Origin: Candidatus Agathobaculum pullistercoris | GTDB lineage: Bacteria; Bacillota; Clostridia; Oscillospirales; Butyricicoccaceae | Reading direction: 5' to 3' | Length of the DNA: 34,931 bases | Assembly: GCA_019114345.1 (NCBI GenBank) | Contig: DXFS01000099.1 | Coordinates: forward strand, 1-34,931 | Shown here: one piece after another, positions 8,784-31,110 of the stretch | Layout: every line of letters starts with the position of its first letter | Position numbering within the stretch: the first letter of the stretch is position 1 | The notes under the pieces: generated by a model | The model's input: the letters and a program-made list of their open reading frames with translations, nothing else | Told to the model about the DNA's origin: nothing | Databases searched by the model: none | Position numbers and translations under genes: made by a program

Positions 8784-8874
8784 GGAGAGTTGGCTGAGTG
8801 GTCGAAGGCGCACGACTGGAAATCGTGTAGGCGTGATGAGCGTCTCCAGGGTTCAAATCCCTGACTCTCCGCCA
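8784..8874 (+). tRNA. tRNA-Ser (anticodon GGA)
   Basis: A 91-base class II tRNA with encoded CCA. The acceptor GGAGAGT (8784-8790) pairs with ACTCTCC (8864-8870), discriminator G at 8871. The anticodon arm CACGA-CTGGAAA-TCGTG gives anticodon GGA at 8818-8820, and a long variable arm is present as expected for serine. It reads UCC/UCU. A terminator follows directly. The integrase of the neighbouring prophage points toward it, so its 3' end is the probable integration site. Confidence 0.97.
8850..8874. other. Probable prophage left attachment site (attL) in the tRNA-Ser 3' end
   Basis: Tyrosine integrases next to a tRNA usually recombine within its T-arm/acceptor 3' half. Here the integrase gene ends 177 bases from the tRNA and nothing else lies between except two terminators. 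The second copy of the core (attR) is not in the window, so the exact core is not defined. Confidence 0.4.
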
Positions 8875-28293: not shown

Positions 28294-28343
28294 GGCTGAC
28301 TATTCACCTGAAATCGAGCGGTATTTGAAATGGAGGTATGGGC

Positions 28344-28745
28344 GTGAGACAACGCGAGGACTGGTGGGAGTACACCAAGCGGATCATCCGGTCATATCCA
28401 GCGTTGGAGCGGAAGGTCAATAGCATAGGCGCGCAGTCAGTGACGGCTGCATATGGCCCAGCCGGTGGACACGGAAGCACGCCCGGCCGGCCGGTGGAGC
28501 AGGCAGTCGTTAACAGGTTGACGGATAAGGAGCAGCGGCGGTATGATGCTGTGCGAGCCGCAATTGCTGATACGGAGCAGATGAAGTCGGGCAGGCAACG
28601 GATTGAACTGATTGATCGAGTATACTGGAAGAGATCACATACATTGTTTGGAGCTGCAATGTGCGTGCCTGTGAGCGAGAGAACGGCGCACTCTTGGAAT
28701 TCGGAGTTTATACGGCTTGTAGAAAAATATTTAGACCTACCATAA
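28344..28745 (+). CDS. ArpU/RinA-like late transcription regulator
   Basis: A 133-residue protein of the sigma-like ArpU/RinA type. It has an N-terminal helical region (WWEYTKRIIRSYPALERKV), a middle helix (RLTDKEQRRYDAVRAAI), then a sigma-region-4-like helix-turn-helix (LIDRVYWKRSHTLFGAA ... VSERTAHSWNSEFIRLV). GTG 28344 was chosen over ATG 28338 because GGAGG at 28332-28336 is 7 bases away; the ATG would be one base away. Proteins of this kind switch on late genes, and it sits directly before the structured RNA/tRNA and terminase, where its target promoter is expected. Confidence 0.82.
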   Translation: MRQREDWWEYTKRIIRSYPALERKVNSIGAQSVTAAYGPAGGHGSTPGRPVEQAVVNRLTDKEQRRYDAVRAAIADTEQMKSGRQRIELIDRVYWKRSHTLFGAAMCVPVSERTAHSWNSEFIRLVEKYLDLP

Positions 28746-28756
28746 AAAATTGCCTA

Positions 28757-29117
28757 ACGCGCACCTACTTATCGTGTAAAATAGGTAGTGTGAAGATGCG
28801 GGATGAAACCGAGGCTCGCATTCCTCTTCTTCACATCCCCCTATTTCTTACCCGTCCTGCAGCAGCGGGGCGGGGACATGTCCCAAACGCTGCATGAGGC
28901 GGGAAGGGACGAACTCGGATGATCTCTCAAAAGTGAATTGACAGAATCCACACCCGTGCCCGGCGGGATATCCGGGCAATACGCGCACAGCATGATGCCA
29001 AGCCATCCTGTGGGATGGCGGGTCGGCTCATTACCGATCGTGCGCTCCACCGTCCGAGAGGACGGGTAAGCCTTCAGTCGTGCATATTGCATAGAAGGGA
29101 TGCCCCGAAAGGGGCAT
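28757..29117 (+). ncRNA. Candidate large structured phage RNA upstream of the tRNA
   Basis: No protein gene is credible here, but hairpins follow one another. Stem 28789-28795/28829-28835 continues as 28796-28800/28817-28821. A compound hairpin has TGCAGC/GCTGCA (28858-28863/28889-28894), palindrome 28873-28884 and outer CCCG/CGGG. Then come 28957-28963/28972-28978, 29002-29008/29013-29019, and GNRA-loop hairpins at 29050-29065 (GAGA) and 29100-29117 (GAAA). GCGCAC at 28983-28988 can pair with GTGCGC at 29040-29045 to close a junction. The 3' end runs directly into a tRNA. Position (prophage, tRNA-adjacent) resembles ROOL and GOLLD RNAs, but identity is unproven. It could also include the packaging site. 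Confidence 0.5.
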
Positions 29118-29119
29118 AC

Positions 29120-29194
29120 GGCAGAGTGGAGCAGTGGTAGCTCGCGAGGCCCATAACCTCGAGGCCGCCGGTTCGAATCCGGCCTCTGCAACCA
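29120..29194 (+). tRNA. Phage-encoded tRNA(CAU), initiator-like (fMet type)
   Basis: A 75-base cloverleaf with encoded CCA: acceptor GGCAGAG (29120-29126) with CTCTGCA (29184-29190), D-stem GAGC/GCTC, anticodon arm CGAGG-CCCATAA-CCTCG, T-arm GCCGG-TTCGAAT-CCGGC. Anticodon CAU at 29152-29154. The 1:72 pair is an unpaired G-A, and the D-stem has A11:U24. Both are initiator marks. The core TGGAGCAGT..GGTAGCTCG also mirrors bacterial initiator tRNA. Departures: A29:U41 where initiators have G:C, C33 instead of U33, and a short D-loop. Elongator Met or Ile2 (CAU) is less likely. Confidence 0.9.
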
Positions 29195-29228
29195 GTAGTC
29201 ATTTTCAAGTTTTCTCTCCATATCTGGG

Positions 29229-29255
29229 AAAGCACTCCCACTTGAGGGTGCTTTT
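29229..29255 (+). terminator. Terminator-like hairpin after the phage tRNA
   Basis: AAAGCAC(T)CCC pairs with GGGTGCTTTT (29229-29239 with 29246-29255) with a one-base bulge and a 6-base loop, ending in TTTTCTG. It could end the RNA/tRNA transcript before the terminase operon. Confidence 0.5.
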
Positions 29256-29285
29256 CTGCGTCTGAATACAAAGGACGGTGATACT

Positions 29286-29690
29286 GTGCCAAACCTGACA
29301 GCAAAGCAAAAAGCGTGGATCGATTACTACAAGCAAGGTAAGACGGCGGCGGAGGCGGCACGTCTCGCCGGGTATAAAGCAAAAAGCGATAAGGCATTCC
29401 AGAATATAGGTAGCGAAAACGTGGGGAAACTTGGGGATTACATCGCAGATCGCGATGCCGTCCTCGAATCTCCGCGCATCGCTGATATGGAGGAGATCAA
29501 CGAGTTCTGGACCAGTGTGATGCGTGACAAAGACGAGTCGACAAAGAACCGGCTGAGGGCATCTGAACTGCGGGCAAAGGCTTCTGGGGCTTTCATCGAA
29601 AAGGTGCAGCATTCCGGCAGTGTAGATGTCAACCCGTATGCGGGCCTGACGACCGAGGAGCTGCGCAAACTGGCGGGATCGGATGGTTGA
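29286..29690 (+). CDS. Terminase small subunit
   Basis: A 134-residue DNA-packaging recognition subunit. N-terminal LTAKQKAWIDYYKQGKTAAE then ARLAGYKAKSD is the usual helix-turn-helix opening of this family. The middle helices (IADMEEINEFWTSVMRD) and the tail YAGLTTEELRKLAG also fit. It binds the pac/cos site and hands DNA to the large subunit. The site is usually in or near this gene, so the structured region upstream is a candidate. GTG start with AAGGACGGTG about 8 bases upstream. Overlaps the large-subunit gene by eight bases. Confidence 0.93.
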   Translation: MPNLTAKQKAWIDYYKQGKTAAEAARLAGYKAKSDKAFQNIGSENVGKLGDYIADRDAVLESPRIADMEEINEFWTSVMRDKDESTKNRLRASELRAKASGAFIEKVQHSGSVDVNPYAGLTTEELRKLAGSDG

Positions 29691-31110
29691 CCCTGCGATC
29701 CGCCGCGGCGCCCGTCTGGAGCTGGCGCGCCGGGAGTTCTGGGAATACTGCAAGCTGATGGCGCCGGATTTCTATCGTGAAGACCGGCCGTACCTGAAAG
29801 AGCTGTGCAGCCGTTTGCAGGCGTTCTGCGAGAGTGACCGTAAGGTCATGGTGATCAACATGCCGCCGCGTCACGGCAAGAGCCGCACGGCGGTTTTGCT
29901 GTCCCAGTGGCTGTTCGGCCGCGATCCGAGCGAGCAGATCATGACAGGCAGCTACAACGAGACGTTATCCACAACCTTTGCCCGCTCAGTGCGGGACGGC
30001 ATTGCGGAAGAAAAGTTCGACCCGAACCGCACAGTGTTCTCGGACATCTTCCCGGATACCCGCATCAAGTACGGCGAGGCGGCCGCGGGCAAGTGGGCGC
30101 TTGAAGGGCAGTATGCCAGCTATCTGGCGACTTCCCCCGGCGGTACGGCGACCGGCTTCGGCGCGAGCATCCTGATCATCGACGACCTGATCAAAAAGGC
30201 CGAGGAAGCGTTCAACGAGAATATCCTCGAAAAACAGTGGCAGTGGTTCACGGATACCATGTTTTCGCGTACCGAGACCGGCTACAAGATCATTATCATC
30301 ATGACCCGCTGGGCGACGGGCGACCTTGCCGGCCGTGCGCTGCGTCACTGGCCGGATGCAGAGCACATCACGATGAAAGCCCTGCAGGACGATGGTACGA
30401 TGTTATGCGACGCCGTACTGACCCACGCGGACTATGACGAGAAGATACGCGCCATGTCCCCGGAGATCGCCTCCGCCAACTACCAGCAGGAGCCGATCGA
30501 CCTCAAGGGACGGCTGTACAGCCGGTTCAAAACCTACGATGACATTCCGCGGGATGCGCAGGGGCGGCCGCTGTTCACGGAGATCAGCAACTATACCGAC
30601 ACAGCGGACACCGGATCGGACTACCTGTGCTCGATCACCTACGGCGCGTACAACCACGAGGCGTATGTGCTGGACGTGTACTACACCAAGGCGCCTATGG
30701 AGGTCACGGAACCGGAAACAGCAAAGCGGCTGGTCGAGACCGGCTGTACCCATGCGCTGATCGAGAGCAACAACGGCGGCCGCGGGTTTGCTCGCAATGT
30801 CGGCCGCGAGCTGGACGCGCTGGGTTCCAACCGCTGCCGGATCGAGTGGTTCCACCAGAGCGAGAACAAGACGGCCCGCATCATGACAAATGCGACCTGG
30901 GTGCAGGACCATATCTACTTCCCGGTCAACTGGCGCGACCGCTGGCCGGAATACTTTGACGCGATGGTGAAATACCAGCGCGAGGGCAAAAACGCACACG
31001 ACGACGCGCCGGACGCCACAACGGGCGTTGCGGAGCAGATGACCGGGAAACGGCAGCCGGTTATCCCAAAGACCACGATGCCGGCGCAAAAATCTTATTG
31101 GAGGAGGTGA
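29683..31110 (+). CDS. Terminase large subunit
   Basis: A 475-residue packaging motor. The ATPase has a Walker A-like MPPRHGKS (60-67), a Walker B-like ILIIDD (163-168) and the coupling segment IIIIMTRWATGDLAG (about 204-218). The C-terminal RNase-H-like nuclease has DTADTGSDY (first Asp cluster), the ESNNGGRGFARNV segment and final HDDAPDATTGV. It drives DNA into the prohead and cuts it. Length is normal for this family. No frameshift is visible. Confidence 0.95.
   Translation: MVDPAIRRGARLELARREFWEYCKLMAPDFYREDRPYLKELCSRLQAFCESDRKVMVINMPPRHGKSRTAVLLSQWLFGRDPSEQIMTGSYNETLSTTFARSVRDGIAEEKFDPNRTVFSDIFPDTRIKYGEAAAGKWALEGQYASYLATSPGGTATGFGASILIIDDLIKKAEEAFNENILEKQWQWFTDTMFSRTETGYKIIIIMTRWATGDLAGRALRHWPDAEHITMKALQDDGTMLCDAVLTHADYDEKIRAMSPEIASANYQQEPIDLKGRLYSRFKTYDDIPRDAQGRPLFTEISNYTDTADTGSDYLCSITYGAYNHEAYVLDVYYTKAPMEVTEPETAKRLVETGCTHALIESNNGGRGFARNVGRELDALGSNRCRIEWFHQSENKTARIMTNATWVQDHIYFPVNWRDRWPEYFDAMVKYQREGKNAHDDAPDATTGVAEQMTGKRQPVIPKTTMPAQKSYWRR

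Follow-up and report, generated by a model that had tools for sequence, protein, structure and literature searches.

In the late region of a prophage from an Agathobaculum-type host, 540 bases (28746-29285) lie between the stop codon of an activator gene and the start of the small-terminase gene and hold no credible gene. What such a gap does at the head of a late operon is the question addressed here. ROOL and GOLLD are tRNA-adjacent phage RNAs, and an earlier note on this DNA had read the gap as one large structured RNA of that kind, possibly divergent or of a new class. We explored it in a window of 34,931 nucleotides (the whole stretch of DNA analysed; the leader features and flanking genes lie on its forward strand) and by comparison with related genomes and viral loci. 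Most likely the region forms a modular leader at the 5' end of the late transcript of a prophage, and we propose it as a possible RNA switch that controls late transcription, in preference to a giant RNA of a class already described. Hairpin-rich gaps next to a tRNA in phages are not necessarily relatives of ROOL or GOLLD.

Results

Coding content and flanking genes

The gap is preceded by a RinA-like late activator gene (28338-28745; PHROG 248, transcriptional activator, E 2.9e-4), whose product reaches 30.7 bits against TIGR01636 phage_rinA, just below the cut-off of 31.9, and has no Pfam match. The small-terminase gene (29286-29690; Pfam Terminase_2, E 2.5e-9) is the first past the leader, and the large-terminase gene (29683-31110; PHROG 30251, E 9.5e-195) follows. 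Five listed open reading frames of at least 50 amino acids overlap the 540 bases, none with a Pfam family at E 1, in agreement with the gene-free gap described before. One of the reading frames here (28661-28897) is a weak match (E 0.0013) to PHROG 33257, a family with no assigned function that is present in 2 of the 87 genomes of the host's family, the source genome being one of them. The gap has no credible gene over its full length; as unexplained sequence, however, it has to be reduced by a tRNA of 75 bases and a terminator-like hairpin of about 28 bases.

Hairpin A is conserved as RNA

The presumed 5'-terminal hairpin of the leader, hairpin A (28789-28835), was described by a covariance model, R1. 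It is formed by two 7-bp helices, a 12-nt loop, RTGAAACNNAGR, and a 7-9-nt bulge on the 3' side, and measures 47 nt in the window and 47-52 nt across sequences. Across the window and eight other distinct sequences, 124 of 126 stem cells are paired and 8 of 14 pairs show a compensatory change; when the 3' strands were swapped among sequences, none of 2000 swaps matched the observed pairing. This count was made by a script with the stem split into its two 7-bp helices and with L011, L015 and L020 left out. Fitting to the model gave an alignment with 10 distinct rows, among them L011, in which one column is misplaced in three rows. Here 94.7% of positions are paired and four pairs change on both sides, a number reached by 16 of 500 shuffles, and the covariation score exceeds all 500; the count is smaller than by the script and agrees with it in direction. 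The sequences are related and come from few hosts, which inflates covariation, and these figures are no probabilities.

The loop RTGAAACNNAGR is constant in all nine sequences while the stems vary, and its reading phase is 2 in six of them and 1 in three. A leader peptide, readable from GTG or ATG AAG, was considered and rejected, as the conserved loop sits in differing frames; homologues thus display no conserved protein frame. Because the loop is constant and the stems are free to change, the comparison speaks against a DNA palindrome bound by protein and suggests that hairpin A acts as RNA. These pairing patterns, read from aligned sequences, demonstrate its conservation at the RNA level. 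The covariation that the earlier note had asked for in homologues was found for hairpin A, and with it the claim of a structured non-coding RNA is upheld.

Model R1 gave 16 matches in 47 sources, several of which are the same contig, 14 of them at E <=1.5e-12. One leader, represented by L011 and L003, carries a degenerate hairpin A (14.6 bits, E 0.96), and in L015 and L020 a plain hairpin replaces it at the same position. Among 37 terminase relatives, five have hairpin A, one has the degenerate form and 31 (L015 and L020 included) are without it, although seven of the 37 have less than 1 kb of upstream sequence, where it may simply be cut off. With strict filters, the model was found in 4 of the 87 family genomes, all of one genus. 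A search of 394 genomes of the order returned two strong matches (the source genome and G018) and 11 further genomes at E 0.008-0.1, which were taken as chance; ten of these weaker loci were checked and gave no activator or terminase match.

A probable promoter and two groups of activator

Two activator groups are found at these loci, a RinA-like one (window, L014-L017 and L020) and one of PHROG 36 (L005, L012, L013 and their kin); both are weakly like RinA or PHROG 248 and may be distant relatives. Position 28750-28782 is a probable late promoter under activator control, judged from a box (28750-28767) and a -10-like TAAAAT (28777-28782); a consensus promoter scan lists none there. Within the five loci with a homologous activator, the box recurs with one mismatch in L014 and L017 and is not found in L015, L016 and L020. 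The upstream boxes differ between the two activator groups, and in phages with the other group DNA homology starts only at 28789. From these data we infer a transcript start near 28789.

A modular leader

A DNA search of 149 related genomes returned a match in nine, source genome included. The match starts at query base 44, equivalent to window position 28789, in the four other same-genus prophages with longer matches (L002/L010, L003, L004 and L005), and likewise at 28789 in L011 and L012; in L017, which has a homologous activator, it runs from query base 1. Further viral loci were found through the large terminase (37) and through the activator (five). In L013, L014, L016 and L017 hairpin A is followed by the terminator. 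The order in L005, L004 and L011 is hairpin A (degenerate in L011), hairpin B, tRNA and terminator, the tRNA slot of L004 holding what by eye appears to be a tRNA remnant. The window, L010 and L012 have A, B, an insert, hairpins C-D-E, tRNA and terminator. One large RNA, as had been proposed, does not fit homologues that are modular and an insert that differs between the window, L010 and L012.

Hairpin A follows activators of both groups and precedes large terminases of two families (PHROG 38/30251 and PHROG 2). It is kept in the window, L010 and L012 though most of the small terminase differs, and it stands about 1.0-1.5 kb from the small terminase in L013, L014, L016 and L017; both observations make it unlikely that homologues share only a cos or pac site. 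In several relatives cargo genes, some of them reverse-oriented, lie between the leader terminator and the terminase. At L013 2269-3470, for example, a reverse-oriented Thoeris ThsB-type TIR gene and a SLATT gene occupy a putative cargo or defence slot, and a PHROG 3634 protein is encoded in the cargo position of L005 and L017. A similar order was noted in the distant phage L019 (1395-2355), with a PHROG 36 regulator, a hairpin, a tRNA-Asn, a terminator-like hairpin read by eye and the terminase further on; L019 also bears a likeness to RAGATH-7, at 20 bits against a gathering threshold of 111.8.

Folding of the region and the phage-specific insert

The predicted fold of 28746-29119 has an energy of -155.2 kcal/mol, compared with -126.8 +/- 5.4 for 100 shuffles, all of which it beats (z -5.27). 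The reverse strand also folds well (z -4.78), because strong hairpins score on both strands. The signal varies along the stretch: in 28874-28984 it hardly differs from shuffles (z -1.1), while z reaches -4.28 for hairpin B, -2.65 for 28980-29050 and -6.0 for 29047-29119. A long-range pairing said to close a junction appears in the minimum-energy fold only; it is missing in the centroid, and its 5' arm would fall ahead of the point at which the transcript presumably begins. An alternative 10-nt complement around the insert (28848-28857 with 29060-29069), present also in L010, competes with two local hairpins.

Hairpin B (28851-28874) is GC-rich, with the loop AGCA. It occurs only together with a downstream tRNA or tRNA remnant and is missing from L013, L014, L016 and L017; in six loci its changes, read by eye, are one-sided only. 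After the insert, three hairpins are predicted: C (29050-29065, GAGA loop), D (29071-29098, with a 5-bp outer stem) and E (29100-29117, GAAA loop), the last 2 nt upstream of the tRNA. The two GNRA hairpins claimed before, C and E, are therefore present, and the structured stretch does end flush with the tRNA at 29120. The stretch of hairpin C is 97% identical in L012 and 96% in L010, with loops GAGA and GTAA; the loop of hairpin E is GTAA in both.

The 176-nt insert (28874-29049) is known from this phage only, with no credible match in 149 relatives, 394 order genomes or plasmids. Nine order genomes besides its own gave short matches (best E 6.2e-4), judged to be chance because the alignments are short and scattered; seven of these loci were realigned, and open reading frames were listed for the best one. 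Phage records matching 28700-29200 number 71, and the 20 listed all cover the tRNA. At the insert position other phages carry a tRNA-Leu-like insert or none. The 3' part of the window insert folds into a cloverleaf-shaped element (28983-29049; z -2.65) with a 6-bp acceptor-like stem, one base and CCA; such a fold arose at that place in 2 of 2000 shuffles, or in 8 under a looser rule, with a criterion that was chosen once the fold was known. Descent of this element from a tRNA is not supported, as its best host tRNA score is 47 and plain shuffles, 60 in number, reach up to 50; it is distinguished only by its shape and by where the CCA lies.

The inserts of L010 and L012 are unrelated to that of the window, yet CCA falls at the same junction. 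They contain a 100-101-nt element shaped like a long-arm tRNA, with acceptor strands GGAAGAA/UUCUUCC followed by ACCA (L012 3200-3300; L010 1404-1503, counted on the reverse strand). The best host match of the L012 element is tRNA-Leu(UAG), with a score of 68; the highest score among 60 plain shuffles was 64. This tRNA-Leu(UAG)-like element is degenerate (T-loop TGCGAAT, A33), and in L010 and L012 it is neither reported by ARAGORN nor listed by the Rfam tRNA model.

Terminator-like hairpins before the terminase

In the window, a terminator-like hairpin (29229-29256) lies between the tRNA and the small-terminase gene; its d score is weak (-2.7), and a consensus scan does not list it as a terminator. 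The d score was calculated by a published formula, and in the window only sequence 3' of the tRNA was searched. All 11 loci examined have a terminator-like hairpin behind the leader, with d above 0 in 10 of them (window -2.7; L005 only 1.3), compared with 2 of 60 random window stretches. The nearest one ends 30-37 nt upstream of the small-terminase start in 10 of 12 loci, a set that includes L011, L015 and L020, without a good hairpin A, and not L004. The exceptions are L054, with 7 nt and a listed start that is probably too early, and L019, with no scoring hairpin. In L013, L014, L016 and L017 two such hairpins with good scores (d 17 to 30 and 12 to 26) succeed each other ahead of the terminase, and there the terminator begins 63-71 nt from the presumed start, with hairpin A alone before it. 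A distance of 30-37 nt offers scant space for a promoter, so late transcription probably has to read past the terminator to reach the late genes; a promoter that overlaps the terminator hairpin is formally conceivable.

We also looked for the antitermination factor LoaP. L028 has a LoaP gene (170.8 bits, cut-off 125) about 0.3 kb directly before the large terminase, and LoaP/NusG-like genes precede it at about 0.3 kb in L024 and, separated by one gene, at 1.1 kb in L029. Such genes are within 1.2 kb upstream of the terminase in 3 of the 37 relatives, seven of which have less than 1 kb of upstream sequence. In L028 a RAGATH-28 RNA (51.2 bits, cut-off 45.3) lies between the LoaP gene and the large terminase. 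The window has no LoaP-like match, and none of 25 genomes of the genus, the 77% complete source genome included, has LoaP above the cut-off, lower matches being probably NusG; hairpin A would thus act alone or with general factors.

The tRNA of the leader

The tRNA at 29120-29194 is an initiator-type tRNA-Met(CAT) with C33 (ARAGORN; Rfam tRNA, 58.4 bits). Bacterial initiator tRNAs are recognised by the lack of a Watson-Crick 1-72 pair, by A11-U24 and by the CAU anticodon, and further by three G-C pairs at the foot of the anticodon stem and by U33. The window tRNA has a non-standard 1-72 pair (the G1/A72 mismatch), A11-U24 and CAU; its anticodon-stem foot consists of two G-C pairs and one A-U, and position 33 is C, not U. 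The closest other host tRNA, at 78%, is also a tRNA-Met(CAT). Five distinct tRNAs occupy the slot by ARAGORN (window, L005, L010, L011 and L012), four with C33 and the fifth with an 8-nt loop. U33 is present in 43 of the 44 distinct tRNAs of two genomes (from 84 tRNA matches at 60 loci), the 44th being the window's own.

The tRNA-Met of phages phiLM21, RHph_TM3_3_3, CBW1004C-Prop1 and D3 is 80-85% identical to that of the window. In nine tRNA-Met genes at eight phage loci, U33 is found in eight and C33 only in D3. An annotated antiterminator gene (Q or NusG-like) lies at most 0.8 kb upstream in three of the eight records; their neighbourhoods differ from that of the window. In L135 and L137 an initiator-type tRNA-Met is located between an annotated antiterminator gene (Q and NusG-like, respectively) and lysis or terminase genes.

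Discussion

The conserved hairpin A, the terminator-like hairpins that follow it and the short distance to the terminase make processive antitermination the best fit, and we favour, at somewhat less than an even chance, a cis-acting late leader that allows read-through of terminators by means of hairpin A. In such a mechanism the RinA-like activator would switch on a promoter just past its own gene, RNA polymerase would start at about 28789 and hairpin A would be made first. The polymerase would then meet the terminator-like hairpin between leader and terminase, which it would have to pass to co-transcribe the late genes. Hairpin A, either by itself or together with a factor from host or phage, would alter the young elongation complex, which would thereby pass this and later terminators, while stray transcripts from elsewhere would stop at the leader terminator. 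The slot between leader hairpin and terminator would serve as a cargo site, filled in the window with hairpin B, the CCA-ending cloverleaf-shaped element, three hairpins and the initiator-type tRNA, and RNase P with its partners would cut the cargo tRNA free. The weak terminator of the window (d -2.7) means that simple leakage could suffice in this phage, and L011, L015 and L020, which have terminator-like hairpins and no good hairpin A, would need another way through.

That weak terminator would also suit a plain leader, in which hairpin A shields the late mRNA from exonucleases at its 5' end, hairpins further downstream direct the cleavage of the tRNA, and a leaky terminator sets the ratio of tRNA to late mRNA. 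The location of hairpin A at the presumed 5' end, of hairpins B and E before the tRNA, and the loss, replacement or degeneration of hairpin A in 3 of 10 close relatives (window and L010 counted) are consistent with it; however, a mere protective stem needs no constant 12-nt loop, and L013, L014, L016 and L017 set two well-scoring terminator-like hairpins before the terminase. We consider such a leader rather unlikely, and we give still less credit to a self-contained small RNA in which leader and tRNA end at the terminator and act in trans, as a regulator or tRNA decoy, with the late genes served by leakage. Promoter, compact RNA and terminator would form a unit of about 470 nt, and all five distinct slot tRNAs found by ARAGORN have odd anticodon loops; it has been proposed that changes in the anticodon loop render phage tRNAs insensitive to anticodon nucleases of the host, in a report whose excerpt does not mention position 33 (PMC10264068). 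What makes the small RNA improbable is that the insert is not conserved and that the same four loci keep hairpin A alone before the terminator.

Three further explanations have a very small chance. A cos or pac site at which the small terminase would start packaging would suit a position upstream of that gene; it is very unlikely given that hairpin A is retained in the window, L010 and L012 despite small terminases that are mostly different, stands about 1.0-1.5 kb away in four loci and varies in its stems with a constant loop. An operator for the activator, which an inverted repeat next to the activator gene would suggest, is no more credible, as hairpin A, and not the upstream boxes, is common to both activator groups and its arms vary freely. 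The least probable is a ROOL or GOLLD RNA or a divergent member of these classes. The region is likewise tRNA-adjacent, phage-borne and hairpin-rich, but it is shorter, modular and not conserved as a whole, and its insert is not conserved; neither family is listed for 28700-29290 at E 10, where Rfam returns the tRNA, the only match that reaches gathering, and others far below that threshold.

Read-through by way of hairpin A has parallels among known RNAs. RNA antiterminators have been named for few systems: put, EAR of Bacillus eps operons, conAn2 of pLS20 and canT of Tn916 (excerpts of PMC8955417 and PMC11658703). According to the excerpt of PMC9378689, the put RNA of HK022 is structured, lies close to a phage promoter and suppresses termination in cis; hairpin A, for which structure and a position near a presumed start are supported, may be a counterpart. 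However, put belongs to early operons and has about 70 nt in two stem-loops, whereas hairpin A has 47 nt, heads a late operon with a putative role in antitermination and often stands alone; the two-stem-loop form is not found in L013, L014, L016 and L017, where hairpin B is missing. conAn2, canT and EAR serve long operons of Gram-positive bacteria and mobile elements, as would candidate hairpin A; conAn2 works with the protein ConAn1, and the sequences of these three were set against the leader as far as Rfam holds them. The LoaP-dependent dfn leader has the order small hairpin, intrinsic terminator and long operon, according to the excerpt of PMC12691694, and the phage leader has the same order; LoaP, however, binds a UNCG-type hairpin, unlike the 12-nt loop RTGAAACNNAGR of hairpin A or the AGCA of hairpin B.

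As far as Rfam goes, the hairpin A leader is a new RNA element, and its likeliest function, judged by comparison of sequences, is of a known kind; a literature search gave no description of it among the matches listed. That hairpin A founds an RNA antiterminator class of its own is a doubtful proposal that we put forward as a possibility. The class would comprise leader hairpins of 47-52 nt in which the loop RTGAAACNNAGR is constant and which let the host polymerase of Agathobaculum-type Clostridia pass terminators along the late operons of prophages with different terminases. If it were true, a cargo slot insulated from stray transcription would take tRNAs, tRNA-shaped elements and defence genes. 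A clearly covarying short hairpin and a terminator stand here in front of phage late genes that apparently have to be reached by read-through, which poses a testable question.

Elsewhere in the window, a tRNA-Ser(GGA) at 8784-8874 is followed by a terminator-like hairpin, read by eye; speculatively, this region may be a side of the prophage attachment.
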